This document shows positions 22,863 to 27,153 of a stretch of 64,000 nucleotides of DNA, one piece after another. Source of the stretch: Verrucomicrobiia bacterium (GTDB taxonomy: Bacteria > Verrucomicrobiota > Verrucomicrobiia > Limisphaerales > DSYF01); NCBI GenBank assembly GCA_035765895.1, contig DASTWL010000063.1, forward strand, positions 1 through 64,000, written 5' to 3'. A model generated the notes under the pieces. The model saw only the letters and a list, made by a program, of their open reading frames with translations. It was not told where the DNA came from and did no database searches. A program made the translations under genes and the position numbers. How positions within the stretch are numbered: position 1 is the stretch's first letter; each line of letters opens with the position of its first letter.

Positions 22863-25373
22863 TCATTCCATGGCCCGCGCGATGGAGTTCCACCAGCCGT
22901 CGTGCAGTTCGGTGAGCGGGGCGGAGAATTCACCGGCTCTGGTCTTAATCGTCAGCTTGTCGCCGCCCACGGTGCCGATCTTCACGGCGGGGACCCCGAG
23001 CAGCTTCGCGCGCTCGATGACTTTCGTCGCGTTGATGGCTTTCGTGCTGATGACGACGCGGCTTTGCGTTTCGCCGAAGAGCAACGCGTCGAGGCGCGGC
23101 TTCCATTCTGACACGCCAGCTTCAATTGAACCGAGGTGGGTGATGTCTACCGTGGCTCCGATTAAGCGCGGCGTGTCCTTGGCGATGAGTTCGCTGATGC
23201 AGCTTTCGGCCAGCGCCACGGCAAGGCCGCCGTCGCTGCAATCGTGCGCGCTCTTGATGTCGCCGGTGTGGATGAGGCCGAGCAGCGACGTGTGCAGCGT
23301 CTTCGCGATGTCGAGGTCGCAACGCGGCGGGCTGCCGCTCTTCTTGCCGTGGATGACTTGCAGATAGGCGCTGCCGCCAAGGCCGAAGATGGGATCTGCG
23401 GTGTCCACGGGCGTGCCGAGCAGGATGATGGCGTCACCTTCGTCCTTGAACCATTGCGTGGTGATGTGCTCGGGCTTCTCGATGAGTCCCACCACCGCGA
23501 CGGTCGGCGTCGGATCAATCGGGCCGCTCGGGTTCTGGTTGTAGAGCGAGCAATTGCCGCCGGTGACGGGCGCGTTGAAGGCGCGGCAGCCGTCGGCGAG
23601 GCCGCGCACGGATTCCTGCATCTGCCAGAACAACTCCGGCTTGTGCGGGTTCGCCATGTTGAGATTGTCCGTCGCGCCCAGCGGCACGGCACCGGAACAG
23701 GCAAGGTTACGGCAGCACTCGGCCATCGCAGCTTTCCCGCCTTCGTAGGGATCGAGGTAAACGTAAACGCCGTTGCAGTCCACGCTCATGGCGATGAACT
23801 TGTCCGGCACCTTTGCAGCGGTCGGATTCGTTTCGCACTGCGGCACGCAATCGGCCTTGATACGCAACACCGCGGCATCGCTGCCGGGGCAGACGATGGA
23901 GTTGTTGCGCACCATGTGGTCGTATTGGCGATAGACCCAGTTCTTCGACGCGATGCTCGGCCACGCGAGCAGCTTCTTGAGATCGTCCATCGGCGACTTC
24001 GTGTCGGCGATACCGTCGAGGCGGAACGCGCGGACATCCTTCAAGTAAGCCGGCTCCTGCGATGCACGCTGATACACGGGCGATTCATCGGCGATCTTCT
24101 TCGCCGGAATGTCCGCGACGATCTTGCCGTTGTGACGCACGACCATGCGGCCCGTGTCGGTCACGACACCGACCTCGGCCCACGGCAGATCCCACTTGTC
24201 GAAAATGCGTTTCACTTCGGCCTCGTGACCTTTCTTCACGATGATGAGCATGCGCTCCTGCGATTCGGAGAGCATGATCTCGTAGCTCGACATGTTCGGC
24301 ACGCGCTGCGGCACCTTGTTGAGTTCGATTTCGATGCCGGTGCCAGCGCGCGCGGCGGTTTCGCACGTGGAACAGGTCAAACCCGCGGCGCCCATGTCTT
24401 GAATGCCCGCGACGCAACCGGTGGCGAGCAATTCCAAACACGCTTCGCACACGAGCTTTTCCATGAACGGATCGCCGACCTGGACGGCGCCGCGCTGTTG
24501 CTGCGCGGATTCGTCGGTCAAATCCTGCGACGCGAAAGCCGCGCCTGCGAGGCCGTCGCGCCCCGTGGCCGGGCCGACGTAGAACACGGGATTGCCGATG
24601 CCCTTGGCCGCGCCGCGCGCGATCTGGTCGTGGCGCAGCACGCCGAGGCAGAACGCGTTCACGAGCGGATTGCCCTCGTAGCTCTTGTCGAAATACACCT
24701 CGCCCGCGATGGTCGGGATGCCGAAACAATTGCCGTAATGCGCGATGCCATTTACCACGCCAGCAAAGAGGCGGCGGTTGTTCTTGATGTTTGCGCCTTC
24801 GGCGGAATCATTTTGCCCGCCCTCACCCCGGCCCTCTCCCCCGGGGAGAGGGAGGTCCGTTGCGGACGTCGTTGCTGAAATCGTGCGTGTTTGCCCGTCG
24901 CCGCCGCCAGCTTCTCCCTCTCCTGGGGGAGAGGGCCGGGGTGAGGGCGGACGTTCATCACTAATTGGTCCGAACCTGAGTGAGTTCAGCGCCGCAATCG
25001 GCCGCGCGCCCATGGTGAAGATGTCGCGCACGATGCCGCCGACGCCGGTGGCCGCGCCCTGGAAGGGTTCGACCGCGCTCGGGTGGTTGTGCGACTCGAT
25101 CTTGAACGCGATGGCGAGGTTGTCGCCGATGTCGATGATGCCGGCGTTCTCCTCGCCGGCGCCGACGAGAATCTTCGGCGACTTGGTGGGGAAGGTGCGC
25201 AGCAGCGGCTTGGTGTTTTTGTAGGAGCAATGCTCGCTCCACATCACCGAGAAGATGCCGAGCTCGGTGTAGCTGGGTTCGCGGCCGCCGAGGATTTCCT
25301 TGGCGTGGGCGTATTCCTCGGGCGTCAGGTTGTGTTTGGCAACCAGTTCAGGCGTGATGGCGGGTTCGGTCAT
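22863..25373 (-). CDS. purL: Phosphoribosylformylglycinamidine synthase PurL, with in-frame repeat insertion
   Basis: ATP-dependent amidotransferase large subunit (836 aa from the ATG at 25371-25373), making FGAM with PurQ and PurS. Small-type PurL is usually about 720-760 aa. Family motifs: [85 protein letters not shown] and [14 protein letters not shown]. Between LNSLRFGP and [18 protein letters not shown] it carries about 46 extra residues ([14 protein letters not shown], then [13 protein letters not shown]) translated from a palindromic repeat. The frame is kept, so the enzyme may still work. A TTG four codons upstream is an alternative start. Confidence 0.93.
24817..24950. repeat. REP/BIME-like inverted-repeat element inside purL
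   Basis: Two perfectly complementary 26-base arms (24817-24842 and 24925-24950) flank an 82-base centre. Each arm continues into its own small hairpin (CCCTCTCCCC / GGGGAGAGGG type). This CTCACCCCGGCCCTCTCCC family is a widespread dispersed repeat of GC-rich genomes whose translations give [12 protein letters not shown] and [13 protein letters not shown]. Here it sits in the purL reading frame without breaking it. No transposase is nearby, so mobilisation would have to be in trans (RAYT-like enzymes are the usual suspects for such elements). Confidence 0.85.
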
Positions 25374-25381
25374 GGGAAAAT

Positions 25382-26086
25382 TCAAATCAAACTCAACGAC
25401 GGGAGCGGAAAGCTAATCAAACGATGTTTCCGTAAAGTTTCTTTTGCCAAGTCAGGATATTCCGGAAAGTTTTCGATCAAACGCGCCTTCTTCTTCACGG
25501 CCATAAAGTAGAAAAACTCTATTGCTTCAACCACGCCGTCAGACGTGTTTAACATCCAGTTTTTTATCTCTTCGCAGGCCGCATCTTCATCTCCACTGGA
25601 AATCATTTCTGAAATTTCACCAAGTCCTTTGAATGGAGCGAAATTGTCGTTGTATGAAACACGAAAAGTTTTCCAACCAACTTCAAGCAACTTGTGATCT
25701 CGTGCTTTATCCTCCTCCTTGTCGTGAAATTCTTTGCTGTCCGCCTCGATTGCAATTTTCAGAAATGGATTTCCAAAATCGACAAAGTATCCGAGCACCG
25801 GAAACTCAGGATATAGAACCACAGGTCGGCTTCTGATGCTTGCCCACAACGAGCTTTCGTTTTTGTTAAATTTCCAATCGAATGGATAAACACTATACCA
25901 AGTTGTCAGGCTCTCGCTGGCAAGGGCCATGATCTTTGGCAGCGCTTCATTGTAATACCTGCGGACGATTTTACGCCTTTCCGAGTTCGGAGAATATTCA
26001 TATTCGTGCTCGCGTTCGATGTCCCGTTGAATCGCATCCCATAAATCGTTGAAGCTTTCTTCCTTCATGCTTGGGACGTTGGTCAT
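25382..26086 (-). CDS. Putative PD-(D/E)XK-fold nuclease inserted in the purSQL operon
   Basis: Protein of 234 aa coded by DNA clearly more AT-rich than its neighbours. The central part reads [20 protein letters not shown], then [20 protein letters not shown]. This is the order seen in DUF559/Vsr-like endonuclease-fold proteins: Asp, strand, E-x-D, His, RD, and a GW-x-x-x-R strand. The N terminus ([23 protein letters not shown]) and C terminus are helical. It starts 22 bases after purQ and ends 8 bases before purL, so it is probably co-transcribed. Composition and position point to horizontal acquisition. Nuclease function is inferred from the motif only, and I do not recognise a specific family. 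Confidence 0.7.
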
Positions 26087-26107
26087 TCGATTGAGCTTCT
26101 GTCGAAT

Positions 26108-26821
26108 TTAAGCCGCCTTGGCCTTCGCCTGATTCTCGAGCCAGGCGATCATGCTTTGGAAAATCAGCAGGCCGTCGTCGCTGCCGAGGAGCTTCTCGCT
26201 CGCGCGTTCGGGATGCGGCATGAGGCCGGCCACGTTGCGGCGCGCGTTGCAGACGCCGGCGATGTTGAGCTGCGAACCGTTCGGGTTCGCGCCCTCAGTG
26301 ATTGCGCCCGTGGCGTCGGTGTATTGCCAGAGGATCTGGTTGTTCGCCTGCAACTGGCTGAGCGTTTCGGCATCGGCGAAGTAGCTGCCTTCGCCATGGG
26401 CGATGGGCACGCGCAGCAGTTTGCCGGCGGGAATCTGGTTCGTGAACGGCGAATCGGGCGTCGGCGATTTCAGGAAAACATGTTCGCAGCGGAACTGGAG
26501 CGATTTGTTCCGCACGAGCGCGCCGGGCAGCAGGTTGGCTTCGCAGAGGATCTGGAAGCCGTTGCAGATGCCGAGCACGAGCCCGCCGTTGTCGGCGAAC
26601 TGCTTCACGGCCTGCATCACGGGGCTGAACCGCGCGATGGCGCCGGTGCGCAGGTAATCGCCGTAGCTGAAGCCGCCGGGCACGATGACGGCGTCGGCGT
26701 CGCCGAGCGAGGCGTCCTTGTGCCAGACAAGGCGCGCGGTGTGGCCGAGGACGTTGCGGAGGACGTGGACGGAGTCCTGATCGCAGTTGGAACCGGGAAA
26801 TTGTAGGACGGCGAAGTTCAT
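26108..26821 (-). CDS. purQ: Phosphoribosylformylglycinamidine synthase glutaminase subunit PurQ
   Basis: Class-I glutamine amidotransferase (237 aa) supplying ammonia to PurL. It begins with the family hallmark [15 protein letters not shown]. It has the nucleophile elbow [20 protein letters not shown] (Cys near 86) and the catalytic His/Glu pair in the C-terminal [11 protein letters not shown]. The oxyanion and substrate loop [17 protein letters not shown] is also present. Gene order purS-purQ-(nuclease)-purL on the minus strand is the standard split FGAM synthase arrangement apart from the extra gene. Confidence 0.96.
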
Positions 26822-26910: not shown

Positions 26911-27153
26911 TCATTCGATCTCCAGCTTGTAGTCCTCGATGATGGGGTTGCTGAGGAGCTTGTGGCACGCGTCGTCGATGGCCTTCTGCGCGGCGACCTT
27001 GTCGGTGCCGGGCGCGAGGTCGATCTCGATGTATTTGCCGATGTGCACGCCGGCGACGCCGGTGTAGCCCATGTGTTCGAGCGCGCCCTGGACCGTCTTG
27101 CCCTGCGGGTCAACGACGGCCTTTTTCGGAGTGATGATGATCTTGGCTTTCAT
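26911..27153 (-). CDS. purS: Phosphoribosylformylglycinamidine synthase subunit PurS
   Basis: Small 80-aa subunit that bridges PurQ and PurL in the split FGAM synthase. It starts MKAKIIITPKKAVVDPQGKT and has the conserved ALEHMGYTGVAGVHIGKYIE and the terminal helix/strand NPIIEDYKLEIE. Length is normal. It is the first gene of the purS-Q-L group, so purine-dependent control should act upstream of it, but I see no clear PurR box or riboswitch in the 100 bases upstream. Confidence 0.95.
   Translation of the reverse strand: MKAKIIITPKKAVVDPQGKTVQGALEHMGYTGVAGVHIGKYIEIDLAPGTDKVAAQKAIDDACHKLLSNPIIEDYKLEIE

Follow-up and report, generated by a model that had tools for sequence, protein, structure and literature searches.

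A predicted DUF559/Vsr-like endonuclease gene between purQ and purL in a Verrucomicrobiia bacterium, at a junction variably occupied across its order

The window analysed here is the whole stretch of 64,000 nucleotides from a Verrucomicrobiia bacterium. In its purine operon, one open reading frame stands between purQ and purL; it begins with an ATG, encodes 234 amino acids and lies exactly where the first-pass annotation had placed it. The genes and junctions concerned are as follows:

26911..27153 (-), purS; the purS-purQ junction of 89 bp served as a control
26108..26821 (-), purQ, the upstream flank, of whose 3' end some other filled sites hold a copy
26087..26107 (-), left junction, 21 bp from the purQ stop to the nuclease start
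25382..26086 (-), DUF559 / Vsr-fold (EDxHD-like) nuclease gene, 234 aa, stop included (ORF, Pfam PF04480, AF2 model)
25374..25381 (-), right junction, 8 bp from the nuclease stop to the purL ATG
22863..25373 (-), purL, the downstream flank, with its ATG at 25373

The downstream gene has a peculiarity of its own. Within purL, at 24815-24950 (-), there is a GC-rich inverted repeat that keeps the reading frame; its arms resemble CCGCCCTCACCCCGGCCCTCTCCC and the complement of that sequence. The open frame of PurL with this repeat is longer than in a same-genus genome (849 aa vs 782). From its look, the repeat may be a REP/REPIN-type element.

The ORF had been described as deviating in composition from its surroundings, and the measurements bear this out. 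Its GC content is 43.8%, compared with a mean of 62.1% (sd 3.4) for 705-bp windows over the 64-kb window, which was the reference. As few as 0.07% of the sliding 705-bp windows had a GC content as low as that of the ORF, and 25051-26355 was the sole region of the 64-kb window with 705-bp windows below 52% GC. The GC3 value of the nuclease gene was 0.49, vs 0.87 for purQ and 0.82 for purL.

The protein matched the Pfam family DUF559 (PF04480) on aa 75-146 with 29.3 bits against a gathering threshold of 20.6 (E = 8.3e-7). Its match to REase_MTES_1575 (PF18741) reached 24.3 bits, under the Pfam cut-off of 38.2, and Pfam revealed no further DNA-binding module on the protein. Searches against the PADLOC and NCBIfam models gave no match, and those against PHROGs gave a chance-level match at most. 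Three further DUF559 matches were present in the window's genome (C33:86577-86900, C53:2657-2977 and C19:1252-1563); these scored 107-127 bits, vs 30.5 bits for the window nuclease.

An alignment of 33 sequences was built from the window protein (P0001), 31 proteins from viral contigs and one from an archaeal draft genome. Together with the predicted structure, it divides the protein into three parts:

25865..26086 (-), helical N-terminal part, aa 1-74, in which Y45 and P66-Y67 are conserved (alignment, model)
25649..25864 (-), nuclease core, aa 75-146 (Pfam, alignment, AF2 model)
25412..25639 (-), C-terminal helical part, aa 150-225, common to the closest viral-contig relatives (alignment, model)

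In these closest relatives, the C-terminal part carries the pattern TS.G(V/I)..AI...YF ... L..HRS. Residues E77, R85, D103, F104, P107, E114, D116, H121 and G137 were invariant in 33 of 33 sequences, and D126, R129, W138 and R142 were at least 90% conserved. The first-pass annotation had read a PD-(D/E)XK-like pattern into the protein, and the residues it named turned out to be true motif positions: D103 (VDF), E114/D116 (EAD) and H121 (HD) are among the invariant residues, and R129 and R142 (FRV) are among those conserved in at least 90% of the 33 sequences. The conserved catalytic-type residues expected of a Vsr/EDxHD-type PD-(D/E)XK nuclease are present as E77, D103, E114, D116 and H121; the metal-binding role among the conserved residues is our assumption from the fold. 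Judged by this alignment, the ORF is intact, with every conserved residue in place.

The AlphaFold2 model built from the 33-sequence alignment reached a pLDDT of 85.4 and a pTM of 0.83; an earlier model from four sequences was poor (pLDDT 53.9), and its match list agrees with that of the later one. The core elements follow in the order H75-85, E92-97, E100-106, E111-116, H123-135 and E139-144, which is the alpha-beta-beta-beta-alpha-beta core of Vsr/EDxHD-type PD-(D/E)XK nucleases, and D103, E114 and D116 sit on central strands and E77 on the first core helix, as the fold expects. The best solved match was the catalytic domain of I-Bth0305I (Z 8.8 over 93 residues, rmsd 2.2), to which Foldseek gave a probability of 1.00 but an E-value of 2e-3; NGO0050 (Z 7.5), Vsr (Z 6.8) and TnsA (Z 6.2) were further neighbours. 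The comparison with Vsr and DUF559 folds that the first-pass annotation had proposed as a check thus found the fold present and the acidic residues suitably placed on the secondary structure. In addition, a profile of the 33-sequence alignment matched NGO0050 (3hrl) with an E-value of 4.1e-13 and I-Bth0305I with one of 0.077. No Foldseek E-value against solved structures was below 0.001 (the best were 1.7e-3 and 2.0e-3), and mitoribosomal proteins scored comparably against the model (Z 7.4-8.2); the fold alone is therefore not proof of DNA cutting. Taken together, the model and the conserved motif indicate that the product is likely an intact endonuclease with a DUF559/Vsr-like (EDxHD-type) PD-(D/E)XK fold that would cut DNA.

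Two roles suggest themselves from these structural matches. Genes for homing endonucleases often lie between conserved genes, and a free-standing enzyme of this type might cut empty purQ-purL junctions and be copied in by repair, so that the gene would have placed itself. The best solved match is the catalytic domain of such an enzyme, and EDxHD is listed as one of six homing families in the accessible part of PMC3943268; on the other side, Pfam shows on the protein nothing beyond DUF559 and the sub-threshold MTES_1575 match that could serve as an added DNA-binding module. The second role is that of a Vsr-like mismatch-repair nuclease acting at T:G mismatches. It would agree with the match to the Vsr fold and with Caulobacter VsrA, a protein with a DUF559 domain for which, according to the accessible portion of PMC12907096, a role at T:G mismatches is predicted. 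However, no C5-cytosine methylase (PF00145) was detected at E<=0.001 in the window's genome, which is 96% complete, whereas 10 of 14 control genomes were positive. Because this methylase was not detected in the genome, we regard a Vsr repair role as very unlikely, and the replication-type neighbourhood of the viral relatives described below also speaks against it.

To reveal the relatives of the nuclease gene, genome and viral contigs were searched. A four-row profile detected relatives at 63 loci on viral contigs, of which 41 were extracted and 30, together with L080, were aligned; this profile was run on viral contigs only, so that "mainly viral" describes the recovered relatives and not the true host spread. 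On genome contigs, a single-sequence scan recovered no relative of the nuclease, and a two-row profile recovered one, in an archaeal draft genome. Among 146 genomes, the window's own included, there was one other match, a weak one of 64 residues within a 1155-aa frame. A full-length relative with 45% identity (L081) was found in another genome of the same class, where its neighbours, named by eye, are a TIR-like ORF and a phage-head-like ORF. In the phylogenetic tree, the window protein grouped with L081 (100/97) and then with L082 (96/95), and these three fell within a group of 15 members whose other 12 came from viral contigs (90/95). This group forms an open fork, and the outer branching of the tree is therefore unsure.

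The neighbourhoods of the viral relatives point to phage replication. By eye, the nuclease gene follows replication-type genes in ten viral loci, though not directly in L105. Family searches placed a DnaB-like helicase directly upstream of the relative in L100 and L107; in L101 and L104 this position is taken by a phrog_6028 protein, ahead of which L101 also has an initiation protein. RusA was found in L104 and L107 and NinB in L110. Because of these viral relatives and their replication neighbours, recovered with a best query that covered viral contigs only, the nuclease gene appears to be phage-derived. The strongest rival to a host role starts from the same observations, namely that a phage replication or recombination nuclease is carried passively at a place that merely tolerates insertions, with no selected role in the host. 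The DnaB or initiator genes beside the viral relatives, with RusA and NinB in some, would suit this scenario, as would the AT-rich composition of the gene and its presence at purQ-purL in one genome only; the intact ORF with all its conserved residues argues against it.

A same-genus genome (G001) shows the junction without the gene. Its purQ-purL gap is 36 bp and contains no nuclease, and no gap interrupts its alignment with the window over all 714 nt of purQ or over the initial 300 nt of purL. The nuclease was thus either gained in the window's genome or lost in G001. Gain is the simpler explanation, because tight purQ-purL sites are common and none of the 31 other filled purQ-purL gaps contained a relative of the nuclease (tblastn, E<=0.1). 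The first-pass annotation had suspected that the gene is mobile, and its absence from the same-genus genome, its near-absence from 146 genomes and its many relatives on viral contigs sustain this suspicion. The same distribution bears on homing. Neither recurrence at the same site nor an intron or intein was found, the gene lying between two intact genes, and elsewhere in the 146 genomes there is just the weak 64-residue match. Because the nuclease gene does not recur at purQ-purL, in 0/31 other filled gaps, we consider it improbable that homing brought it there. Most likely, the gene would have been gained horizontally, entering the purQ-purL junction after the split from the same-genus relative.

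Synteny in relatives, another check proposed at the outset, showed a junction that is empty in G001 and variably filled across the order. Among the purQ and purL matches listed over 320 genomes, about 160 places for each gene, together with some from other comparisons, hand-matching of pairs on one contig and at most 6.1 kb apart yielded 61 gaps, of which 26 were at most 100 bp, 3 were 101-200 bp and 32 were longer than 300 bp. In genus g44 alone, 15 of 22 gaps exceeded 300 bp, ranging from 349 to 2883 bp. Most inserts were small (27/32 measured 0.3-3 kb), and the six empty sites retrieved measured 10-36 bp. In 24 of 31 filled relatives, the insert had a GC content at least 3 points under that of the purQ beside it.

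Two control junctions behaved differently. First, the NfeD-stomatin junction, located elsewhere in the window, was at most 241 bp in 56/56 pairs, and 0/56 gaps exceeded 300 bp, vs 32/61 at purQ-purL (Fisher p 4e-12); this junction was hand-matched in 60 of 225 genomes, giving 56 one-contig pairs, 2 split pairs and 2 genes without a partner. Second, the purS-purQ junction was at most 152 bp in 30/30 loci picked by purQ likeness only and, in a second set of 40 loci, reached 371 bp once and did not exceed 134 bp in the other 39. In those 30 loci picked by purQ likeness, purL lay inside the 1.5-kb flank in 11, at distances of 10-36 bp (4 loci), 133-166 bp (2 loci) and 416-734 bp (5 loci). The other 19 showed no purL within the flank, of which nothing was left in one of them; these loci may hold longer inserts or a moved purL. 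Outside the order, closeness of purQ and purL was rare among 145 genomes (97 bp in G397, 598 bp in G447 and 60 bp in G434). Conserved flanks, variable cargo and a frequently empty state, as expected of a hotspot, were all found at purQ-purL among these 61 gaps. The relatives' genomes are mostly draft assemblies. The best reading of these sequence comparisons is that the purQ-purL junction serves as an accessory-gene slot across the order.

To identify what the slot carries, 40 ORFs picked by length and by eye were scanned from 25 filled sites, comprising 24 relatives and the window; second members with matches were settled by blastp, and the seven of the 32 filled sites outside this set are L045, L060, L062, L067, L069, L070 and L073. 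Pfam families of toxin-antitoxin, restriction/methylase or nuclease type were present at 17 of the 25 sites. They included HigB, HicA, HicB and PIN among toxin-antitoxin families, Eco57I, D12 methylase and HNH among restriction or methylase families, and YhcG_C, PDDEXK_3 and DUF559 among nuclease families; the remaining cargo consisted of DUF4160, DUF4268, DUF4143/AAA, Sel1, HAD-like and Y1 transposase proteins and unknown ORFs. The PADLOC candidate models PDC-S02 and PD_DExK each matched 3 of the 40 cargo proteins among the first 25 of 132 models. The cargo thus includes known or candidate immune or toxin-antitoxin genes, as in defence hotspots. Since relatives often carry small toxin, restriction or nuclease genes there, purQ-purL has the look of a landing site for mobile genes that has so far gone unnoticed. 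The link to defence proposed in the first-pass annotation stands in part: the company at the site is of defence type, which is indirect support, but the PADLOC models do not match the protein itself. The high share of toxin, restriction or nuclease genes at scanned sites also counts against passive carriage of the nuclease, whereas cargo without a defence link, such as Sel1 and HAD-like proteins, fits a tolerant site. On balance, we regard passive carriage as possible, though not probable.

The first cargo ORF shared the strand of purQ in 23 of 31 relatives; in three of the other eight (L056, L062 and L065), a frame resembling HicA or HigB runs in the same direction as purQ and begins directly behind it. 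Several further features of the inserts were observed. IS200-like Y1 transposase genes (L046 751-1350 (+) and L048 1882-2343 (-)) stand beside HNH-type or HTH genes. Three genomes, belonging to two families, encode a small HAD-like protein (MKNANIFVDVDLTL / MKNANVFVDVDLTL...) immediately ahead of purL (L047 2222-2545, L056 2738-3061 and, in L060, just before purL). The long inserts L060, L061 and L070 share large membrane-protein-like and Gfo/Idh-like ORFs, both named by eye; because of these two shared genes, part of the longer gaps may represent an old conserved insertion rather than recent cargo.

The inserts also contained traces of purQ itself. The filled gaps were compared with four 240-nt segments, three from purQ and one from the start of purL. 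Part of the last purQ segment recurred in 8 of the 32 gaps (E<=1e-6), whereas the first and middle segments of purQ and the purL segment recurred in 0/32. A purQ-end copy is lacking at 24 of 32 filled sites, the window's own among them. In L065, two copies surround separate genes. The copy in L061 resembles purQ ends of another family more closely (85.6% over 139 nt) than its own (75% over 161 nt). A 39-nt piece in L060, known from the cross-genome comparison only and outside the 8/32, has its counterpart in the purQ end of a g44 genome (94.9% alike), its own purQ not being among the best listed. For the nine loci with copies, L060 included, the best match was the own purQ in 4 and the purQ of another genome in 5, some of the margins being small. 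The copies start at various positions, between 83 and 171 of the last 240 nt, which disfavours a fixed attachment site and favours homology-based exchange. Apart from the IS200-like Y1 transposase at two sites, no recurring recombinase was found among the 40 scanned cargo proteins. A site-specific integrase acting at purQ was set aside, given the varying copy starts and the lack of a shared recombinase.

Similar cargo recurs in different families of the order. The PDDEXK_3 cargo was 93% alike between G164 (f62) and G262 (f43), the D12 methylase cargo 81% alike between G229 (f43) and G013 (f11), the YhcG cargo 77-79% alike among G242 and G261 (f43) and G024 (f22), and the HicB cargo 78% alike between G087 (f48) and G037 (f35). 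In several pairs, the cargo was no more alike than PurQ, and vertical descent of some cargo is therefore possible. PurQ itself was 96.6% identical between G024 (f22) and G261 (f43), vs 76.5% between G254 and G235 of one f43 genus. This likeness fits the transfer of a whole purQ-cargo-purL block, and a mis-binned contig would look alike. G024 (locus L049) and G261 (L058) also have PurL starts that are 99.2% identical, with a YhcG gene between purQ and purL. A bolder reading, which we find doubtful, is that the purQ 3' end acts as the recombination address of integrase-free cassettes and the pur operon as an integron-style expression slot without an integrase; units of a gene plus a purQ 3'-end fragment would then cross families, integrate by homology and stack up, as in L065.

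Considering all of these findings, we think it somewhat probable that the gene encodes an intact mobile endonuclease, residing in an accessory slot within the pur operon that recombination would supply with genes, and acting on foreign DNA. The cargo of this slot would often consist of toxin-antitoxin, restriction-modification or nuclease genes, singly or a few together, which mostly share the strand of purQ and so could ride on transcription of the pur operon. Most likely, the cargo would be exchanged through purQ/purL homology, either as purQ-cargo-purL DNA or as cargo with a purQ 3'-end fragment, and without an integrase of its own. The nuclease would most likely cut a restricted class of DNA, defined by sequence, structure or modification and absent from the host, and would thereby counter phage and other mobile DNA on its entry. 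We are led to this function by the motif, which is intact, by a family of phage type and by the kinds of cargo that the site holds in relatives.

Compared with published hotspots, the slot differs in scale and place: it lies inside one biosynthetic operon, with small cargo and scars of the purQ end, and related genomes show it directly both filled and empty. For this order, of which the genomes used here are for the most part drafts, the purQ-purL gap could serve as a simple bait for unknown small immune genes and as a clean place to study the movement of integrase-free gene cassettes. The literature searched, in part by titles and the openings of abstracts and mostly without subscription papers, showed no purQ-purL hotspot or integration site, which gives no proof of absence.

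The protein resembles NGO0050 (3hrl) and Caulobacter VsrA in its core domain, the positions of its acidic/histidine motif and its fold. It differs from them in its additional conserved N- and C-terminal helical parts, in the link of its viral relatives to phage replication genes and in a genome in which no C5-methylase was detected. The catalytic core of I-Bth0305I, an EDxHD homing endonuclease, is its best structural match (Z 8.8), but no intron, repeated target site or added DNA-binding module was found for the window gene. In the accessible parts of PMC10121019, PMC5635113 and PMC10250203, defence hotspots are described as islands between core genes or at tRNA genes, and those of Escherichia coli hold defence systems mostly carried by mobile elements (PMC10121019). 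The nearest parallel is Pseudomonas aeruginosa, in which defence hotspots flanked by core genes occur without a single mobilising element (PMC10250203, as far as its available text goes). The purQ-purL slot shares with these conserved flanks, changing cargo with immune genes and lower GC; unlike them, as that text presents them, it lies inside one biosynthetic operon, has small inserts and is marked at some sites by purQ 3'-end copies. A model of exchange by recombination at the core genes on either side has been published (available portion of PMC5635113); like the process proposed here, it requires no integrase. Compared with that model as its available portion sets it out, exchange at purQ-purL would extend across families of one order rather than within a species, and the copies left behind are of the purQ 3' end only.
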